Assembly (NCBI GenBank): GCA_002383325.1 | Contig: DFYJ01000130.1 | Span: forward strand, 4,893 to 22,129 | DNA length: 17,237 nt | Direction: 5' to 3' | Origin: Candidatus Aminicenantes bacterium UBA4085 | GTDB lineage: Bacteria; Acidobacteriota; Aminicenantia; Aminicenantales; UBA4085 | Shown: piece after piece, positions 1,221-9,490 of the stretch | How positions within the stretch are numbered: position 1 is the stretch's first letter | How the letters are laid out: each line of letters begins with the position of its first letter | Translations under genes and position numbers: made by a program | Notes under the pieces: generated by a model | Seen by the model: the letters and a program-made list of their open reading frames with translations, nothing else | Database searches by the model: none | Told to the model about the DNA's origin: nothing

Positions 1221-1294
1221 CCCAAGCCCCCGGGCGGCGCTGGTAATGGCGGCCCGATCGGGCTATGATAAGGGTCCCGCACAAGGAGTCTACG

Positions 1295-1516
1295 ATGAAG
1301 GAAAGAGTCGAAGCGGCGCTCAATAAGGTCCGCCCGCAGCTGCGCATGGACGGCGGCGACGTCAAGCTGATCGAAGTCGGTGAGGACGGAGTCGTCAAGG
1401 TCAAGCTGACCGGAGCCTGCGGCGGCTGCCCCATGTCCCAACTGACCCTCAAGATGGGCATCGAGCGCATTCTGAAGAAGGAAGTCCCCGAGATCAAGGA
1501 AGTCGTCTCGGTCTGA
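1295..1516 (+). CDS. NifU C-terminal-domain (Nfu-type) Fe-S carrier protein
   Basis: A 73-residue stand-alone NifU C-terminal domain. Such proteins bind a [4Fe-4S] cluster between two subunits through a CxxC motif and pass it to apo-proteins in the cytoplasm. The motif ACGGCPMSQLTLKMGIE is at residues 41-57, with C42 and C45 as ligands, and RMDGGDVKLIEV (17-28) is the typical N-terminal signature. I chose ATG 1295 because a strong ribosome-binding site (AAGGAG, 1283-1288) lies 6 bases upstream. An in-frame ATG at 1265 would add ten residues (MIRVPHKEST) unlike the family and would bury the ribosome-binding site. It is first in a compact group with the IscS-like and IscU-like genes (23-bp gap to the next), which supports a role in cluster assembly or delivery. 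Confidence 0.9.
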   Translation: MKERVEAALNKVRPQLRMDGGDVKLIEVGEDGVVKVKLTGACGGCPMSQLTLKMGIERILKKEVPEIKEVVSV

Positions 1517-1539: not shown

Positions 1540-2727
1540 ATGAAGCGCATCTATCTCGATCGGATCGCGGCTTCCCCGGTCCACCCTGATGTTCTGTCCG
1601 CCATGCTGCCGTATTTCCGCGAGCGGTTCGGCAACGCCCAGAGCCTGCACTCCGACGGCCAGACCGTCCAGGAGGCCGTGGCCGAGGCCCGCGAACAGAC
1701 GGCCCGGCTGATCGGCGCCGGTCCGGAGGAGATCACTTTCGTCTCCTGCGGCTCCGAGGCCAATAATCTCGCCCTCAAAGGCTTGGCCTTGGCAGCCCGG
1801 CCCAAGGGCGGTCATATCGTCCTCTCCGCGATCGAGCACAACTCCGTCCTCAATGCGGCCAAAAGCCTGGAGAAGCGGGGCTTCGCGACGACCATCGTCC
1901 CCGTCGACGGCGAGGCCCGGGTCGATCCCGGGGCGGTCGCCGCGGCCCTGCGGTCGGACACGGCGCTCGTCTCGATTCAGCTGGCCAACTCCGAAGTCGG
2001 CACGATCCAGCCCCTGGCCGAGATCGCCCGCCAGGTCAAAGCCAAGGCTCCGGGGGTATTGATCCATACCGACGCCGTGGCCGCGGCCGGTTCGATTCCC
2101 ATCGACGTCCGGGCCCTCGGTGTTGACGCCCTCTCGCTGGCCGGCGACCAGCTTTCCGGGCCCAAGGGCAGCGGCGCCCTGTACGTCCGCAAGGGCGTCA
2201 AGGTCCTGCCCCAGATCGACGGCGGCATCCAGGAAGGCGCGAGGCGGAGCGGAACCGAGAACGTCCCGGCCATCATCGGCCTGGGCCGGGCGGCCGAGAT
2301 CGCGATCGCGACCCTGGACGAGCGCCGCCGCTACCTGACCGCCCTGCGAGACCGGCTGATCGAGGGCCTCACGGCCCGCATCCCGCACGTCCTTCTGACC
2401 GGCGCCCGGACCGAGCGCCTGCCGCACCACGCCAGCTTCGCGGTCCGCTTTGTCGAGGGCGAGGCCATGCTGCTGAGCCTGGACATGAAGGGCATCGCCG
2501 CTTCCAGCGGCTCGGCCTGCACCTCCAAGTCGCTCAAAGCTTCGCACGTCCAGCTGGCCATGGGGCTGGACCATGCCGCCGCGAACGGCTCGATCGTCTT
2601 CAGCCTGCTGGAGGACGCCTCGGCCGCCGATATCGACTTTCTGCTCGACGTCTTCCCCCCGATCGTCGACCGCCTGCGGAAGATGTCGCCGCTCTACACG
2701 GAGTTTCTCAAGGAGACCGCCCGATGA
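1540..2727 (+). CDS. IscS/NifS-like cysteine desulfurase homologue lacking the PLP lysine
   Basis: Aligns by eye along its whole 395 residues with IscS/NifS, the PLP enzymes that take sulfur from cysteine for Fe-S assembly. Conserved parts include IYLD (4-7), the PLP-phosphate region VSCGSEANNLALKG (68-81), EH100, D178 (pairs with the PLP ring nitrogen), GPKGSGALYV (207-216), RRSGTENV (235-242) and the active-loop SSGSACTS with C327. The lysine that forms the Schiff base (K206 of E. coli IscS, in SGHK) is Gln204 (CAG, 2149-2151), and the preceding His is Asp203. Other usual PLP or substrate contacts also differ: NNE is NSE (150-152), DA(T/V)Q is DAVA (A181), and HGGGxERG is DGGIQEGA (227-234). 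The frame is intact, and its ATGA stop overlaps the next gene's start. It may be a pseudoenzyme or an altered PLP protein. No ribosome-binding site is obvious, so translation may be coupled. Confidence 0.88.
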   Translation: MKRIYLDRIAASPVHPDVLSAMLPYFRERFGNAQSLHSDGQTVQEAVAEAREQTARLIGAGPEEITFVSCGSEANNLALKGLALAARPKGGHIVLSAIEHNSVLNAAKSLEKRGFATTIVPVDGEARVDPGAVAAALRSDTALVSIQLANSEVGTIQPLAEIARQVKAKAPGVLIHTDAVAAAGSIPIDVRALGVDALSLAGDQLSGPKGSGALYVRKGVKVLPQIDGGIQEGARRSGTENVPAIIGLGRAAEIAIATLDERRRYLTALRDRLIEGLTARIPHVLLTGARTERLPHHASFAVRFVEGEAMLLSLDMKGIAASSGSACTSKSLKASHVQLAMGLDHAAANGSIVFSLLEDASAADIDFLLDVFPPIVDRLRKMSPLYTEFLKETAR

Positions 2728-3341
2728 TCTATTCCGATAAGGTGATGGACCACTTCTCCAATCCCCGCAACGTGGGCACCCTGCCCGACGCGAACGGCGT
2801 CGGCCAGGTCGGCAACCCGGTCTGCGGGGACATGATGACCTTCTACATCAAGGTTCAAGGCGACAAGCTGTCGGACATCAAGTTCCAGACCTTCGGCTGC
2901 GGGGCGGCCATCGCCGTCTCCAGCATGGTCTCGGAGATGGCCCTGGGCAAGACCCTGGACGAAGCCATGGCCATCACCAACGAGAAGGTCGCCGATGAGC
3001 TGGGCGGCCTGCCCAAGAACAAGATGCACTGCTCCAACCTGGGCGCCGATGCGCTGCATCTGGCCATCAAGAACTTCCGGGCCCGGGCGGCCGATCCCTC
3101 CGCCCCCACCGTAACCACCGACGGCGGGGCCGACCACCACGACGAAGAGCCCGAGGCGGAGGCGGCCGAGGCCAAGGGCGACGACGGCTGCCCTTACTGC
3201 GATGGTCCGGTCGGGAGCGAGGAGAAGGCCCCCTCCTGCCAGACCTGCGGCCTGGAGCTTGTCGAGTGCGCGGCCTGCGGCCTCTATACCGACAAGTCCA
3301 AGGCGGCCTGCACCCACTGCGGCGCAGCCCTGGCCGGGTGA
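2724..3341 (+). CDS. IscU/NifU-N-type Fe-S scaffold fused to a double zinc-ribbon tail
   Basis: Residues 1-120 are an IscU-type scaffold on which Fe-S clusters are built before transfer. The three cluster cysteines and the assisting Asp are present: NPVCGD (C34, D36), FGCGAAIA (C59) and KMHCS (C103). The usual LPPVKxHCS loop reads GLPKNKMHCS. After residue 120 comes an acidic linker rich in Asp, Glu and Ala (about 122-154), then four CxxC pairs (C156/C159, C172/C175, C182/C185, C196/C199) that look like two zinc ribbons or one rubredoxin-like pair of knuckles. Ordinary IscU stops near 130 residues, and classical NifU carries a [2Fe-2S] domain and an Nfu domain instead, so this tail is not standard. 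The start ATG overlaps the stop of the IscS-like gene (ATGA), which shows translational coupling. The separate Nfu domain is encoded two genes upstream. Confidence 0.88.
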   Translation: MIYSDKVMDHFSNPRNVGTLPDANGVGQVGNPVCGDMMTFYIKVQGDKLSDIKFQTFGCGAAIAVSSMVSEMALGKTLDEAMAITNEKVADELGGLPKNKMHCSNLGADALHLAIKNFRARAADPSAPTVTTDGGADHHDEEPEAEAAEAKGDDGCPYCDGPVGSEEKAPSCQTCGLELVECAACGLYTDKSKAACTHCGAALAG

Positions 3342-3345
3342 GACG

Positions 3346-4272
3346 ATGAGGGCGGGCGTTCCGGCGGCGGATCCGGGCGGGATGCATGAGCGCATCGTCC
3401 GGCTCAAGAAGGAGCGCCGGGCCGTCATCCTGGCCCATAATTACCAGGCGGGCGAGGTCCAGGACGCGGCCGACTTCGTGGGCGACTCGCTGGAACTGAG
3501 CCGCCAAGCCGCCGCGACCCGGGACGCCGAGGTCATCGTCTTCTGCGGCGTCCACTTCATGGCCGAGACGGCCGCCGTCCTGGCTCCGGACCGGACCGTC
3601 CTGATCCCCGATCCCAAGGCCGGCTGCCCGATGGCCGACATGATCACGGCCGAGGAGATGATCCGCTGGAGAGCGGAGCATCCGGGGGTGCCGGCGGTCT
3701 GCTACGTCAATACGTCGGCCGCGGTGAAGGCGGAGTGCGACGTCTGCTGCACGTCGGCCAACTCGGTCAAGATCGTCGACTCGCTGCCGGGGCGCGAGGT
3801 GCTGTTCGCCCCCGACAAGAACCTGGCCGCCTGGACGGCCACCCAAACAGCCAAGACGATCATCCCCTGGGACGGCTATTGCTACGTGCACCACAACATC
3901 CGGGCCCAGGACGTGCGGGAGGCCAGGGAGAAGCATCCCCAGGCCGAAGTGTGGGCCCATCCCGAGTGCCGGCTCGAAGTCCATGCCCTGGCCCACAAAA
4001 CCCTTTCGACGGGCGGGATGGTCCGGGAGGCGCGGGCGACGGCGGCCGAGGAGATCATCGTCGCCACCGAGGCGAACATGATCTACCGGCTGGCCAAGGA
4101 GAACCCCGGAAAGCGCTTCTACCCGGCCCACGAGCTGGCCTTCTGCGCCAATATGAGGAAGATCACCCTGGCCAAGCTGGCCGGGGCGCTGGAGACGATG
4201 ACCCAACGGGTCGTCGTCCCACCCGATATCGCCGCCCGCGCCCGGGTGGCCATCGAGCGGATGATCAGCTAG
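3346..4272 (+). CDS. nadA: Quinolinate synthase A
   Basis: Condenses iminoaspartate with dihydroxyacetone phosphate to quinolinate, the precursor of NAD, using a [4Fe-4S] cluster. The 308-residue length fits the family. Signatures are ILAHNYQAGEVQDAADFVGD (28-47), FCGVHFMAETAA (66-77), NTSAAVKAECDVCCTSAN (122-139), HPECR (205-209) and FCANMRKITLAKL (266-278). By family position the cluster ligands are most likely C94 (GCPMADM), C179 (DGYCYVHH) and C267. ATG 3346 lies 4 bases after the scaffold gene's stop. ATG 3382 (MHERIVRLKKER) is an in-frame alternative that removes a Pro/Gly-rich leader of 12 residues, and neither has a strong ribosome-binding site. Being directly behind a NifS-like and an IscU-like gene recalls Bacillus, where a NifS-type desulfurase encoded beside nadA serves NadA. 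No nadB or nadC is seen nearby. Confidence 0.93.
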   Translation: MRAGVPAADPGGMHERIVRLKKERRAVILAHNYQAGEVQDAADFVGDSLELSRQAAATRDAEVIVFCGVHFMAETAAVLAPDRTVLIPDPKAGCPMADMITAEEMIRWRAEHPGVPAVCYVNTSAAVKAECDVCCTSANSVKIVDSLPGREVLFAPDKNLAAWTATQTAKTIIPWDGYCYVHHNIRAQDVREAREKHPQAEVWAHPECRLEVHALAHKTLSTGGMVREARATAAEEIIVATEANMIYRLAKENPGKRFYPAHELAFCANMRKITLAKLAGALETMTQRVVVPPDIAARARVAIERMIS

Positions 4273-4402: not shown

Positions 4403-4912
4403 ATGACCATCGATCCCAAAATTAAGGCGGCCGACGTCTACCCCATCGCCATTCGGGCTGAGATGGATGCCGCGGGCATCTACCGCGACCTCTACGGGCG
4501 GGTCCGCAATGAGGCCCTCCGCCAGAAGCTGGACTTCCTGGCCAAGGAGGAAGACCGCCACAAGGCTATTTTGGAGCGCGTCTTCCGCGATCATTTTCCC
4601 GGCCGCAAGATGGTCATCCCGGCCCAGTCCAAGCGGCCCAAGATCTCCTCCGCGGTGGACGACGCGACCCTGGTCGTATCGCTCTTCAAGCTGGCCATGC
4701 TGAAGGAGAAGGAGGCCGAGGACTTTTATAAGGGGGCCAAGGCCCAGGCCGAGGATGCCCAGGCCAAGCGCATCCTCGACTACCTATCCCGCGTCGAGCG
4801 CAGTCACTACTTCATGCTGAAGTCGGAGATCGACCTGCTGGAGCGGTTCCCGGATTATTACAACGTCGAAGACGCCCACGAAGGCCAGGACCTCTTCCAT
4901 ATCGGCGCGTAA
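4403..4912 (+). CDS. Ferritin-like / rubrerythrin-type diiron four-helix protein
   Basis: A 169-residue protein with the two-fold diiron ligand pattern of rubrerythrins: E20 in the first helix, E50-x-x-H53 in the second, E102 or E104 in the third (LKEKEAEDFY) and E132-x-x-H135 in the fourth. Such proteins bind two irons and usually reduce hydrogen peroxide or handle iron in the cytoplasm of anaerobes. There is no C-terminal rubredoxin domain, so an electron donor, if used, must be separate. The ATG has a clear ribosome-binding site (AAAGGAG, 4389-4395, 7 bases away). The gene is bounded on both sides by family 1 repeats, so its transcription may be independent of nadA. The exact subfamily is not recognised. 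Diiron binding is a confident inference, the reaction is not. Confidence 0.8.
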   Translation: MTIDPKIKAADVYPIAIRAEMDAAGIYRDLYGRVRNEALRQKLDFLAKEEDRHKAILERVFRDHFPGRKMVIPAQSKRPKISSAVDDATLVVSLFKLAMLKEKEAEDFYKGAKAQAEDAQAKRILDYLSRVERSHYFMLKSEIDLLERFPDYYNVEDAHEGQDLFHIGA

Positions 4913-4918
4913 ACAGAG

Positions 4919-5011
4919 AGGGGTCAGGTCTTGACATTTGACATTTCTAGTTAAAATGCCAACTCGAACTCCCGCCGTGGAAAAAATGTCAAATGTCAAG
5001 ACCTGACCCCT
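4919..5011. repeat. Family 1 palindromic element, copy 2 (93 bp), overlapping the start of nth
   Basis: The same perfect 25-bp arms as copy 1 (4919-4943 and 4987-5011) surround an unrelated 43-bp centre. It starts 6 bases after the stop codon of the ferritin-like gene. The right arm contains ATG 4993, which is the start codon of the endonuclease III gene, so the repeat is partly coding. The left arm contains TTGACA (4931-4936), followed 15 bases later by TAAAAT (4952-4957). That could act as a weak promoter reading toward nth, but the spacing is short. Confidence 0.9.
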
Positions 5012-5715
5012 CCAAGATCATCCGCATCCTGCGGGAGGATGACCCCCATCCCGAGACCTGCCTGCGCCACGAGACGCCCTGGGAGCTGCTGGTGGCCACC
5101 ATCCTGTCCGCCCAGTGTACGGACGAGAGGGTCAACCGGATCACGCCGGGCCTCTTCCGCAAATACCCCGACGTGAAGGCCTTCGCCGAGGCCGACCGGG
5201 CCGGGCTGGAGGCCGATATCCGACCGGCCGGCTTCTTCCGCAACAAGGCCAAGAGCATCCAGGGAGCGGCCCGCAAGCTGGCCGACGAATTCGGCGGCCG
5301 CGTCCCTGAGACCATGGCCGAGCTCATCACCCTGCCCGGCGTGGCCCGCAAGACGGCCAACATCGTTCTCTCCTCGGCCTTCGGCAGGGCCGAGGGCATT
5401 GCCGTAGACGTGCACGTGGCCAGGATCTCGGGGCGCCTCGGCTTGAGCCGCGAGACGGCGCCTGAGAAGATCGAGCGCGACCTGCTGGCCTTAGTTCCCA
5501 AGGACTACTGGCTGGACTTCAACTACCTTCTGGTCAACCACGGGCGTGCCGTCTGCCAGGCCCGCAAGCCAAAGTGCGGCGAGTGCAGGCTGGCCCCGCT
5601 CTGTCCCAAGATCGGGGTCGCTGCGGATCCCGTGGCCCGGGCGCGCGGCGCGGTGAAATCGCCGAGGATGACGTCAGGAATTGGAAGGGGGAAGCGGTAT
5701 AATCGGGTCGGGTAG
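4993..5715 (+). CDS. nth: Endonuclease III (DNA glycosylase/AP lyase)
   Basis: Removes oxidised pyrimidines from DNA and cleaves the abasic site. Visible are the helix-hairpin-helix LPGVARKTANIVLSSAFG (114-131) with catalytic K120, the catalytic Asp in VDVHVAR (D139), and the [4Fe-4S] loop C188-x6-C195-x2-C198-x5-C204. The 240-residue length includes a basic tail of about 36 residues after the cluster loop, longer than the E. coli enzyme. The start ATG lies inside the right arm of a family 1 repeat. The frame is closed by TAG at 4948-4950, and no other ATG or GTG in frame precedes the conserved region, so residues MSRPDPS come from the repeat. No ribosome-binding site is evident. When folded, the repeat would put the start codon in a stem, which could restrain translation. 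Confidence 0.93.
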   Translation: MSRPDPSKIIRILREDDPHPETCLRHETPWELLVATILSAQCTDERVNRITPGLFRKYPDVKAFAEADRAGLEADIRPAGFFRNKAKSIQGAARKLADEFGGRVPETMAELITLPGVARKTANIVLSSAFGRAEGIAVDVHVARISGRLGLSRETAPEKIERDLLALVPKDYWLDFNYLLVNHGRAVCQARKPKCGECRLAPLCPKIGVAADPVARARGAVKSPRMTSGIGRGKRYNRVG

Positions 5716-8959: not shown

Positions 8960-9490
8960 ATGGAGCGCTACCGCATCCTCGATCACGGCGGCGACGGCAA
9001 GATCCGGGCTTTCGGCGCGACCCTCGAGGAGGCTTTCGGCCACGCGGCCCTGGCCGTCACCTCGCTGATGACGGATTGGGAGAAGGTCGAGCCTCGGGTC
9101 GAACGGGCTGTGGCCGCTGAAGGCCGGGACCTGGGCCAGCTCTTGGTCAAATTCCTGACCGAGATCCTCTACTTGTCCGACGCCCAGGGCTTCGTCCTCG
9201 GCGCCGTGGCCGGCCTCAAGATTGAAGTACCAGACACAGACCCCATTGAATCAGCAGACACATACCTGATTCCTGCGCCTGCCCCTAACAAACTCAATGC
9301 CGGAGATGCAAAATCTCCAACTGCAACCCGCCCCGGATTTCGCCTGACGGCCCGCTTCCAGGGCGACGACCGCCCCGAGCGGTATGCCTTCCATGGCGAC
9401 GTCAAGGCGGTCACCTACAGCGAGTTGAAGATCGAGTCCTGCGCCTGCGGCCCGGGCGCCTGGGTCGTCCAAGTCGTCGTCGATCTCTAG
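8960..9490 (+). CDS. Archease with an in-frame repeat-derived insertion
   Basis: Archease is the small activator of the RNA ligase RtcB and also a chaperone for tRNA methyltransferases. The family averages about 140 residues and this protein has 176. Family features are ILDHGGDGKIRAFG (6-19, usually DHTADIGIRAYG, with both Asp kept: D8, D12), TLEEAFGHAALAVTSLMTDWEKVEP (21-45), FLTEILYLSD (65-74), GDVKAVTYSELKIE (146-159; the usual TYH is TYS) and the final VVVDL with D175. Residues 91-126 (9230-9337) have no counterpart in archease. They are Pro/Ala/Thr/Asp-rich and encoded by less GC-rich DNA containing family 2 repeat copies. The extra segment lies between two beta strands, where a loop might be tolerated. 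No rtcB gene is in the window. Start ATG 8960 lies 5 bases after the permease stop, suggesting co-transcription. Confidence 0.85.
   Translation: MERYRILDHGGDGKIRAFGATLEEAFGHAALAVTSLMTDWEKVEPRVERAVAAEGRDLGQLLVKFLTEILYLSDAQGFVLGAVAGLKIEVPDTDPIESADTYLIPAPAPNKLNAGDAKSPTATRPGFRLTARFQGDDRPERYAFHGDVKAVTYSELKIESCACGPGAWVVQVVVDL
9230..9337. repeat. Degenerate family 2 repeat pair and small hairpin inside the archease gene
   Basis: CCAGACACAGACCCCATT (9230-9247) and AGCAGACACATACCTGATT (9253-9271) are two copies in the same direction of the family 2 arm, whose intact form is AGCAGACACATACCAATT. They are followed by a small hairpin GGAGAT/ATCTCC (9302-9307 and 9313-9318, loop of 5). The segment is an exact multiple of three, has no stop in frame and coincides with residues 91-126 that archease normally lacks. 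The last base or two of the boundary are uncertain. Confidence 0.7.

Follow-up and report, generated by a model that had tools for sequence, protein, structure and literature searches.

In this study, we analysed a window of 17,237 nucleotides from Candidatus Aminicenantes bacterium UBA4085 and found that it encodes an IscS/NifS-type protein which is probably a catalytically dead desulfurase homologue, kept as a partner dedicated to an IscU-type scaffold, with its Cys327 serving as a ligand or sulfur acceptor. In textbook accounts, iron-sulfur cluster assembly opens with a catalytically active desulfurase bound to its scaffold. The large bacterial clade described here has lost the catalytic residues but retains both the loop cysteine and the motif for docking. 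Judged from its residues and from an archaeal precedent, the window protein very likely performs no normal cysteine desulfuration, and gene order, motif and selection together make a working partnership with MisU quite likely.

In a profile search, the product of the open reading frame scored 223 bits against PF00266 and 459 bits against TIGR03402 (FeS_nifS equivalog), the latter lying under the curated cut-off of 530.75, which places it among the class V proteins of NifS/IscS type. Its residues were paired with those of E. coli IscS by alignment (Table 1). We take Lys206 of E. coli IscS to be the Schiff-base lysine of PLP, Asn155 to contact PLP or substrate, Gln183 to contact PLP O3', Arg354 to bind the substrate carboxylate, His104 to stack on PLP and Asp180 to contact PLP N1. 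A sequence-only reading of this DNA had placed Gln204 opposite Lys206 and Asp203 opposite the preceding histidine, beside an intact GPKGSGALYV, and codons and alignment agreed with it. It was equally right about the change from NNE to NSE, Ala181 at the glutamine, DGGIQEGA in place of HGGGxERG, the retained SSGSACTS loop motif and Asp178, and the ATGA overlap by which the MisS-like gene, ending at 2727, is coupled to the scaffold gene, starting at 2724. The loss of Arg354, which is Val353 in the window protein, is a further change beyond that list. Against the features of an active type I desulfurase, Lys206 and Arg354 are absent and the loop cysteine is present. The window protein thus differs from E. 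coli IscS at Lys206, Arg354, Gln183, Asn155, Ser203 and His205, and has in common with E. coli IscS/NifS the fold, the loop cysteine, His104, Asp180 and the C-terminal IscU-contact motif.

Table 1. Features of the window, with residue pairing to E. coli IscS
Feature	Positions	Strand	Basis
Nfu-like gene, NifU C-terminal domain; upstream, same cluster	1265..1516	+	profile match
IscS/NifS-type protein without Schiff-base lysine, MisS-like, 395 aa	1540..2727	+	ORF, family profiles, fold match
His100, equivalent to His104, retained	1837..1839	+	alignment
Ser151 for Asn155	1990..1992	+	alignment
Asp178, equivalent to Asp180, retained	2071..2073	+	alignment
Ala181 for Gln183	2080..2082	+	alignment
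Asp203-Gln204 (GAC 2146-2148, CAG 2149-2151) for His205-Lys206	2146..2151	+	codons, alignment
Cys327, equivalent to Cys328, mobile-loop persulfide cysteine, retained	2518..2520	+	alignment
Lys333 in mobile loop, E. coli position 334, near loop cysteine	2536-2538		
Val353 for Arg354	2596..2598	+	alignment
RLRKMSPLY motif, C-terminal, within the IscU-contacting segment of E. coli IscS	2671..2697	+	alignment; accessible text of PMC2854127
IscU/NifU_N scaffold, MisU-like; cluster ligands intact	2724..3341	+	ORF, profile match
Double-zinc-ribbon-like Cys-rich tail of scaffold	3189..3323	+	DZR 20.6 bits, under cut-off 27.3
NadA quinolinate synthase, Fe-S enzyme; downstream, same cluster	3346..4272	+	profile match
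Rubrerythrin-type gene, ordinary	4403-4912		profile match
Endonuclease III-like gene, ordinary	4993-5715		profile match
Archease gene, ordinary	8960-9490		profile match

The absence of the lysine extends to the relatives of the window protein. Of 8000 candidates scored in a database search, 7997 had E <= 0.001, and none of the 120 matches listed, at 65-84% identity and under the database name 'cysteine desulfurase', had lysine at the column of residue 206; the replacement was mostly glutamine (112), with 4 Ala, 2 Ser, 1 Pro and 1 Val. The earlier reading had proposed checking conservation among homologues and had named sequencing error, or decay of this copy alone, as outcomes that would speak against it; neither occurred, the homologues being without the lysine as well. 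In a scan of GTDB representative genomes, 76 of the best 80 of 571 confirmed loci lacked Lys206, a count that applies to the surroundings of the query rather than to desulfurases at large, because the scan was limited to the best loci and steered by a family alignment. The four with lysine (L051, L055, L068 and L076) were ordinary HKxxGPKG enzymes.

For a comparison across groups, rows with identical C-terminal 250 residues were collapsed (from 453 to 373), and we distinguished 185 rows of the lysine-less or Q family, 103 relatives of A. fulgidus IscS (D family), 61 Lys type I and 23 Lys type II rows. Source and residue 206 defined the groups, so that Lys206 is present in every Lys row by construction (61/61 and 23/23, with 0/185 in Q and 0/103 in D); the other sites played no part in the sorting. 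Arg354 followed the same distribution, being absent from Q (0/185) and D (0/103) and present in every Lys type I (61/61) and type II (23/23) row. Gln183 occurred in 2/185 Q, 0/103 D, 60/61 type I and 22/23 type II rows, and Asn155 in 18/185, 28/103, 61/61 and 22/23, respectively. Cys328 was found in 185/185 Q, 103/103 D, 61/61 type I and 22/23 type II rows (one gap), and both His104 and Asp180 in all rows of all four groups (185/185 in Q, 103/103 in D). As read from these alignments, the Schiff base and the substrate site have vanished together, and the loop cysteine and two PLP contacts persist. Residue 206 itself varies in the Q family, where Q, A, S, V, E, P, R, L and M were all seen.

Thinned sets of 69 Q, 25 D and 55 Lys rows revealed changes common to Q and D. 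Serine occupies position 106 in 69/69 Q and 25/25 D rows and in 11/55 Lys rows, alanine occupies position 183 in 62/69 Q and 23/25 D rows, and position 354 is Val, Leu, Ile or Met in every Q and D row. When a relocated active-site lysine was sought, the only columns with lysine in at least 80% of the thinned Q rows were window positions 80, 112, 209 and 333. Position 209 is the lysine of GPKG, which is also present in 55/55 Lys rows, and position 333 (E. coli position 334) is a lysine gained in the loop, found in 65/69 Q rows versus 5/55 Lys rows.

Docking on the scaffold was approached through the C-terminal motif and gene order. According to the accessible text of PMC2854127, E. coli IscU contacts the C-terminal helix Arg379-Lys391 of IscS, and losing residues 376-404 abolishes binding. 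The SP pair of the corresponding LRxMSPLY motif is present in 184/185 Q and 103/103 D rows; among Lys type I rows it occurs in 16/17 with an IscU neighbour and 17/44 without one, and in type II in 0/23. An IscU neighbour was recorded for 66 of the 76 Q rows having genomic context, versus 17 of 61 Lys type I rows. By the rule applied, ten of the 76 had none, including L010, whose IscU is part of a merged frame, and L066, which lies close to the end of its contig; the remaining ones look unlinked. In all 20 loci labelled Aminicenantes/Acidobacteria the Lys-less gene is preceded by a NifU-C gene and followed by one for IscU, and NadA stands behind the module in 19 of them, L017 being the exception. 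The scaffold residues C37, D39, C63, K103, H105 and C106 are intact in 69/69 distinct partners of Lys-less proteins, but they do not mark out the Lys-less pair, since the partners of Lys-type enzymes keep them too (17/17).

Trees built with the five diagnostic columns removed recovered the Q family as one clade, with SH-aLRT 99 in a 155-row tree and bootstrap/SH-aLRT 100/99 in a 60-row tree from which the type II rows and four Lys rows on long branches were excluded. The D family likewise formed one clade (SH-aLRT 100, and 100/100, respectively). Both lie near each other among the Lys enzymes with weak support between, being joined in 12% of 200 bootstrap trees; a constraint to one clade was nevertheless not rejected (p-AU 0.742), and the constrained tree scored 20.8 log units above the one from the free quick search. 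One ancient loss of the lysine and two parallel losses are both possible on these trees. Among 59 family pairs at 80-99% identity, 36 were usable (dS defined and <3), and their median NG86 dN/dS was 0.0575 (range 0.03-0.157); these pairs share lineages and exclude the window gene, to which the nearest locus is 68% identical. The low ratio that the sequence-only reading had proposed as a check was obtained for the family, which, on its coding sequences, is under purifying selection. A Lys-containing homologue beside IscU, L051 (genome G038, a Desulfovirgula record), adjoins the Q clade in the 155-row tree and not in the 60-row tree; it is possibly a glimpse of the state before the lysine was lost.

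The named hosts include Aminicenantes/Acidobacteria, Chloroflexi (Dehalococcoidia), Nitrospirae, Elusimicrobia, Deltaproteobacteria, Deferribacteres, Saganbacteria, Geothermincola and Bacillota, and nearly all of their genomes are MAGs. Through the loci, 51 genomes were reached, 50 with the Lys-less protein and one Lys-only comparison (G038). A survey of the stronger desulfurase matches, down to about 170 bits and leaving out two fragments in G023, found a Lys-containing desulfurase elsewhere in 47 of the 50 genomes and none in G012, G021 and G049, which as MAGs are possibly incomplete. A Lys-type desulfurase is accompanied by its own IscU/NifU neighbour in 14/50 genomes, many of them Nitrospirae (G006, G007, G018, G023, G029, G031, G033, G034, G035, G040, G041, G047, G048 and G050). 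Profile searches found a SUFBD scaffold in 12/50 genomes and none in 38/50 (control positive in 14/14 genomes). Where such a neighbour (14/50) or SUFBD (12/50) exists, the Lys-less pair is therefore not the sole machine. NifU_N was found in 51/51 genomes. Exactly one NifU_N and no SUFBD were found in 18 of the 50, a number in which MAG incompleteness could hide other systems, and coordinate comparison showed that in 14 of these 18 the sole NifU_N directly follows the Lys-less gene; in G029 it follows a Lys-type gene, and in G032, G039 and G044 it is unlinked. Frataxin was found in 0/50 genomes, an absence that carries little weight because the control was positive in E. coli alone of 14 genomes. 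That the hosts are sulfate reducers was rejected as a general explanation: dsrA was above the cut-off in 17/50 genomes and in 0/16 from Aminicenantes/Acidobacteria-labelled records, so that a sulfide-making metabolism fails to explain the whole family.

A lysine-less kind of IscS is already known from archaea, and its primary papers, on A. fulgidus IscS, are reportedly those of Marinoni 2012 and Pagnier 2015. In their accessible portions, PMC7585200 and PMC9769115 state that A. fulgidus IscS is inactive as a desulfurase because the essential lysine is an aspartate; the former adds that one ligand of the [2Fe-2S] cluster in IscU is a cysteine of this protein, and the latter gives this ligand as Cys321 and, in a figure legend, has PLP drawn in the complex 4EB5. 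Like A. fulgidus IscS (IscS2; 4eb5, 4eb7, 4hvk, 4r5f), the window protein has a type I fold without the Schiff-base lysine and Arg354, keeps His104, Asp180, the loop cysteine and the SP docking motif, and has an adjacent IscU gene; Ala183 (23/25) and Ser106 (25/25) in the thinned rows of the A. fulgidus family are further likenesses. The best PDB fold match of the predicted structure, used for fold matching only (mean pLDDT 79.9, with Cys-loop residues 324-332 below 50), was 4r5f, the D199K form of A. fulgidus IscS, and the IscS-IscU structures 4eb5 and 4eb7 were in the top seven. The archaeal precedent makes the window protein less unprecedented than the sequence-only reading had implied. A. 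fulgidus IscS has been solved in complex with IscU. The two kinds differ in some respects: the A. fulgidus kind has Asp for Lys (D199) in 119/119 aligned relatives (120 listed, one near-duplicate left out), whereas the window family has mostly Gln; and the A. fulgidus relatives are archaeal where named and form a separate supported clade in the trees, although a single clade for both kinds is not rejected (p-AU 0.742). The analogy is also inexact because the window subclade has Asp for His205, where A. fulgidus has Asn. Methanosarcina acetivorans IscS1, likened to the window protein by description only, is a further archaeal protein without the essential lysine; it is paired with IscU1 and perhaps functions like A. 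fulgidus IscS, according to the available text of PMC7585200.

The other point of comparison is the MIS system, for which Garcia 2022 is said to be the MIS/SMS phylogeny paper. MIS (MisS-MisU; Helicobacter pylori NifS-NifU) is defined, at second hand and in the parts accessible of PMC12442378 and PMC10653786, as a module of two genes, one for an IscS-type protein and one for a U-type scaffold, an organization common to the window. In these descriptions MisS is a cysteine desulfurase, whereas the window protein lacks Lys206 and Arg354. PMC9973013, which treats MIS regulators, and PMC9628965, which describes a full isc operon in the Nitrospirae acidophile Leptospirillum, have no bearing on the lysine. 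In the accessible open-licence literature no description of the bacterial Gln family was found, which does not establish its absence from print. What looks new is the bacterial clade with Gln for Lys, its breadth, its pairing with IscU genes and its being the partner of the sole scaffold found in some genomes.

On these grounds we propose that the MisS-like protein would form the usual dimer, that its C-terminal segment would dock IscU and that its mobile loop would reach the assembly site of the scaffold. No persulfide would be made in situ from cysteine on Cys327; by analogy with A. fulgidus IscS-IscU, this residue would instead be a cluster ligand, or would accept sulfane sulfur or sulfide produced by another route, and it seems somewhat likely that Cys327 acts in one of these two ways. 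The sulfur source could be a separate Lys-type desulfurase, free sulfide, or both. With His104 and Asp180 invariant, PLP or PMP may still be bound in the pocket, where some chemistry could take place; a B6 cofactor may be there as a structural element, which is less sure in the window subclade given its Asp for His205.

Between persulfide shuttling and a structural or ligand role, the sequence fits either. A relay, in which a Lys-type desulfurase loads Cys327 or forms mixed dimers and the Lys-less protein passes the sulfur to IscU, is favoured by the Lys-type enzymes encoded in 47/50 host genomes, by the invariant loop cysteine and by the lysine near it (K333 in the window protein). We nevertheless regard it as unlikely: the Lys-type gene of L089, L091, L136 and L153 belongs to a SerA/methionine-synthase-like cluster without IscU, and no Lys-type enzyme was found in 3/50 genomes, possibly incomplete MAGs. 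Sequestration of IscU outside assembly by a regulatory or storage protein, for example under sulfide scarcity, is very improbable, for an invariant loop cysteine would be needless and the Lys-less protein is the linked partner of the sole NifU_N found in 14/18 one-scaffold genomes, even if keeping the docking motif while losing the catalytic residues agrees with such a role.

The sequence-only reading had also considered an unusual PLP enzyme with another base. Such a PLP or PMP enzyme, acting on another amino substrate through the Gln/Asp site, the loop lysine or cofactor-only chemistry, is improbable. A catalytic base would not be expected to vary as residue 206 does in the Q family; the loss of Lys206 is accompanied by those of Arg354 and Gln183; and the IscU link and the loop cysteine are left unexplained, all against the invariance of His104 and Asp180 (185/185 Q and 103/103 D rows) and the PLP of the A. 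fulgidus complex 4EB5, which favour it. Since Arg354 is lost with the lysine in 185/185 rows and residue 206 is variable, this branch of the earlier interpretation is weakened, and its other part, a non-decaying scaffold partner without normal desulfuration, is well supported by the sequences. Several active-site residues changed at once, as a pseudogene, a sequencing error or recent decay might produce; yet the whole clade is without the lysine, dN/dS is about 0.06, frames are intact and gene order is conserved, so that the chance of this is negligible. Sequencing error and decay were rejected on the homologues, the entire clade lacking the lysine.

If a catalytically dead partner of the scaffold were also borne out in vitro, the oddity of A. 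fulgidus would become a widespread mode of assembly, and many 'cysteine desulfurase' annotations would be corrected. It would furthermore offer a natural system separating the ligand role of the IscS loop cysteine from its persulfide-donor role, so that how this cysteine acts on IscU would become directly testable. We advance only tentatively the broader idea that the main Fe-S cluster assembly machine of Aminicenantota, and of several further bacterial lineages, could be a scaffold with a dead desulfurase, fed by sulfide or relayed sulfur, with the loop cysteine as ligand and desulfuration left to a separate enzyme, a common bacterial solution that would be shared or paralleled in archaea.

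Some minor observations concern the surroundings of these genes. In the four Aminicenantes/Acidobacteria-labelled loci L089, L091, L136 and L153, the Lys-type gene lies amid SerA-like and pterin-binding/methionine-synthase-like genes (the SerA-like and methionine-synthase-like names being read by eye from the translations) with no IscU, its loop reads GSACSEESEE, and its product perhaps has a role in sulfur-amino-acid metabolism. In the window, the NadA gene is directly 3' of the MisS-MisU-like module; PMC7585200 notes that in methanogens genes for the biosynthesis of methionine and NAD share a cluster with iscSU. A search with the zinc-ribbon-like tail of the scaffold gave matches in 13 of 20 Aminicenantes/Acidobacteria-labelled partners and in 0 from Chloroflexi or Nitrospirae records.
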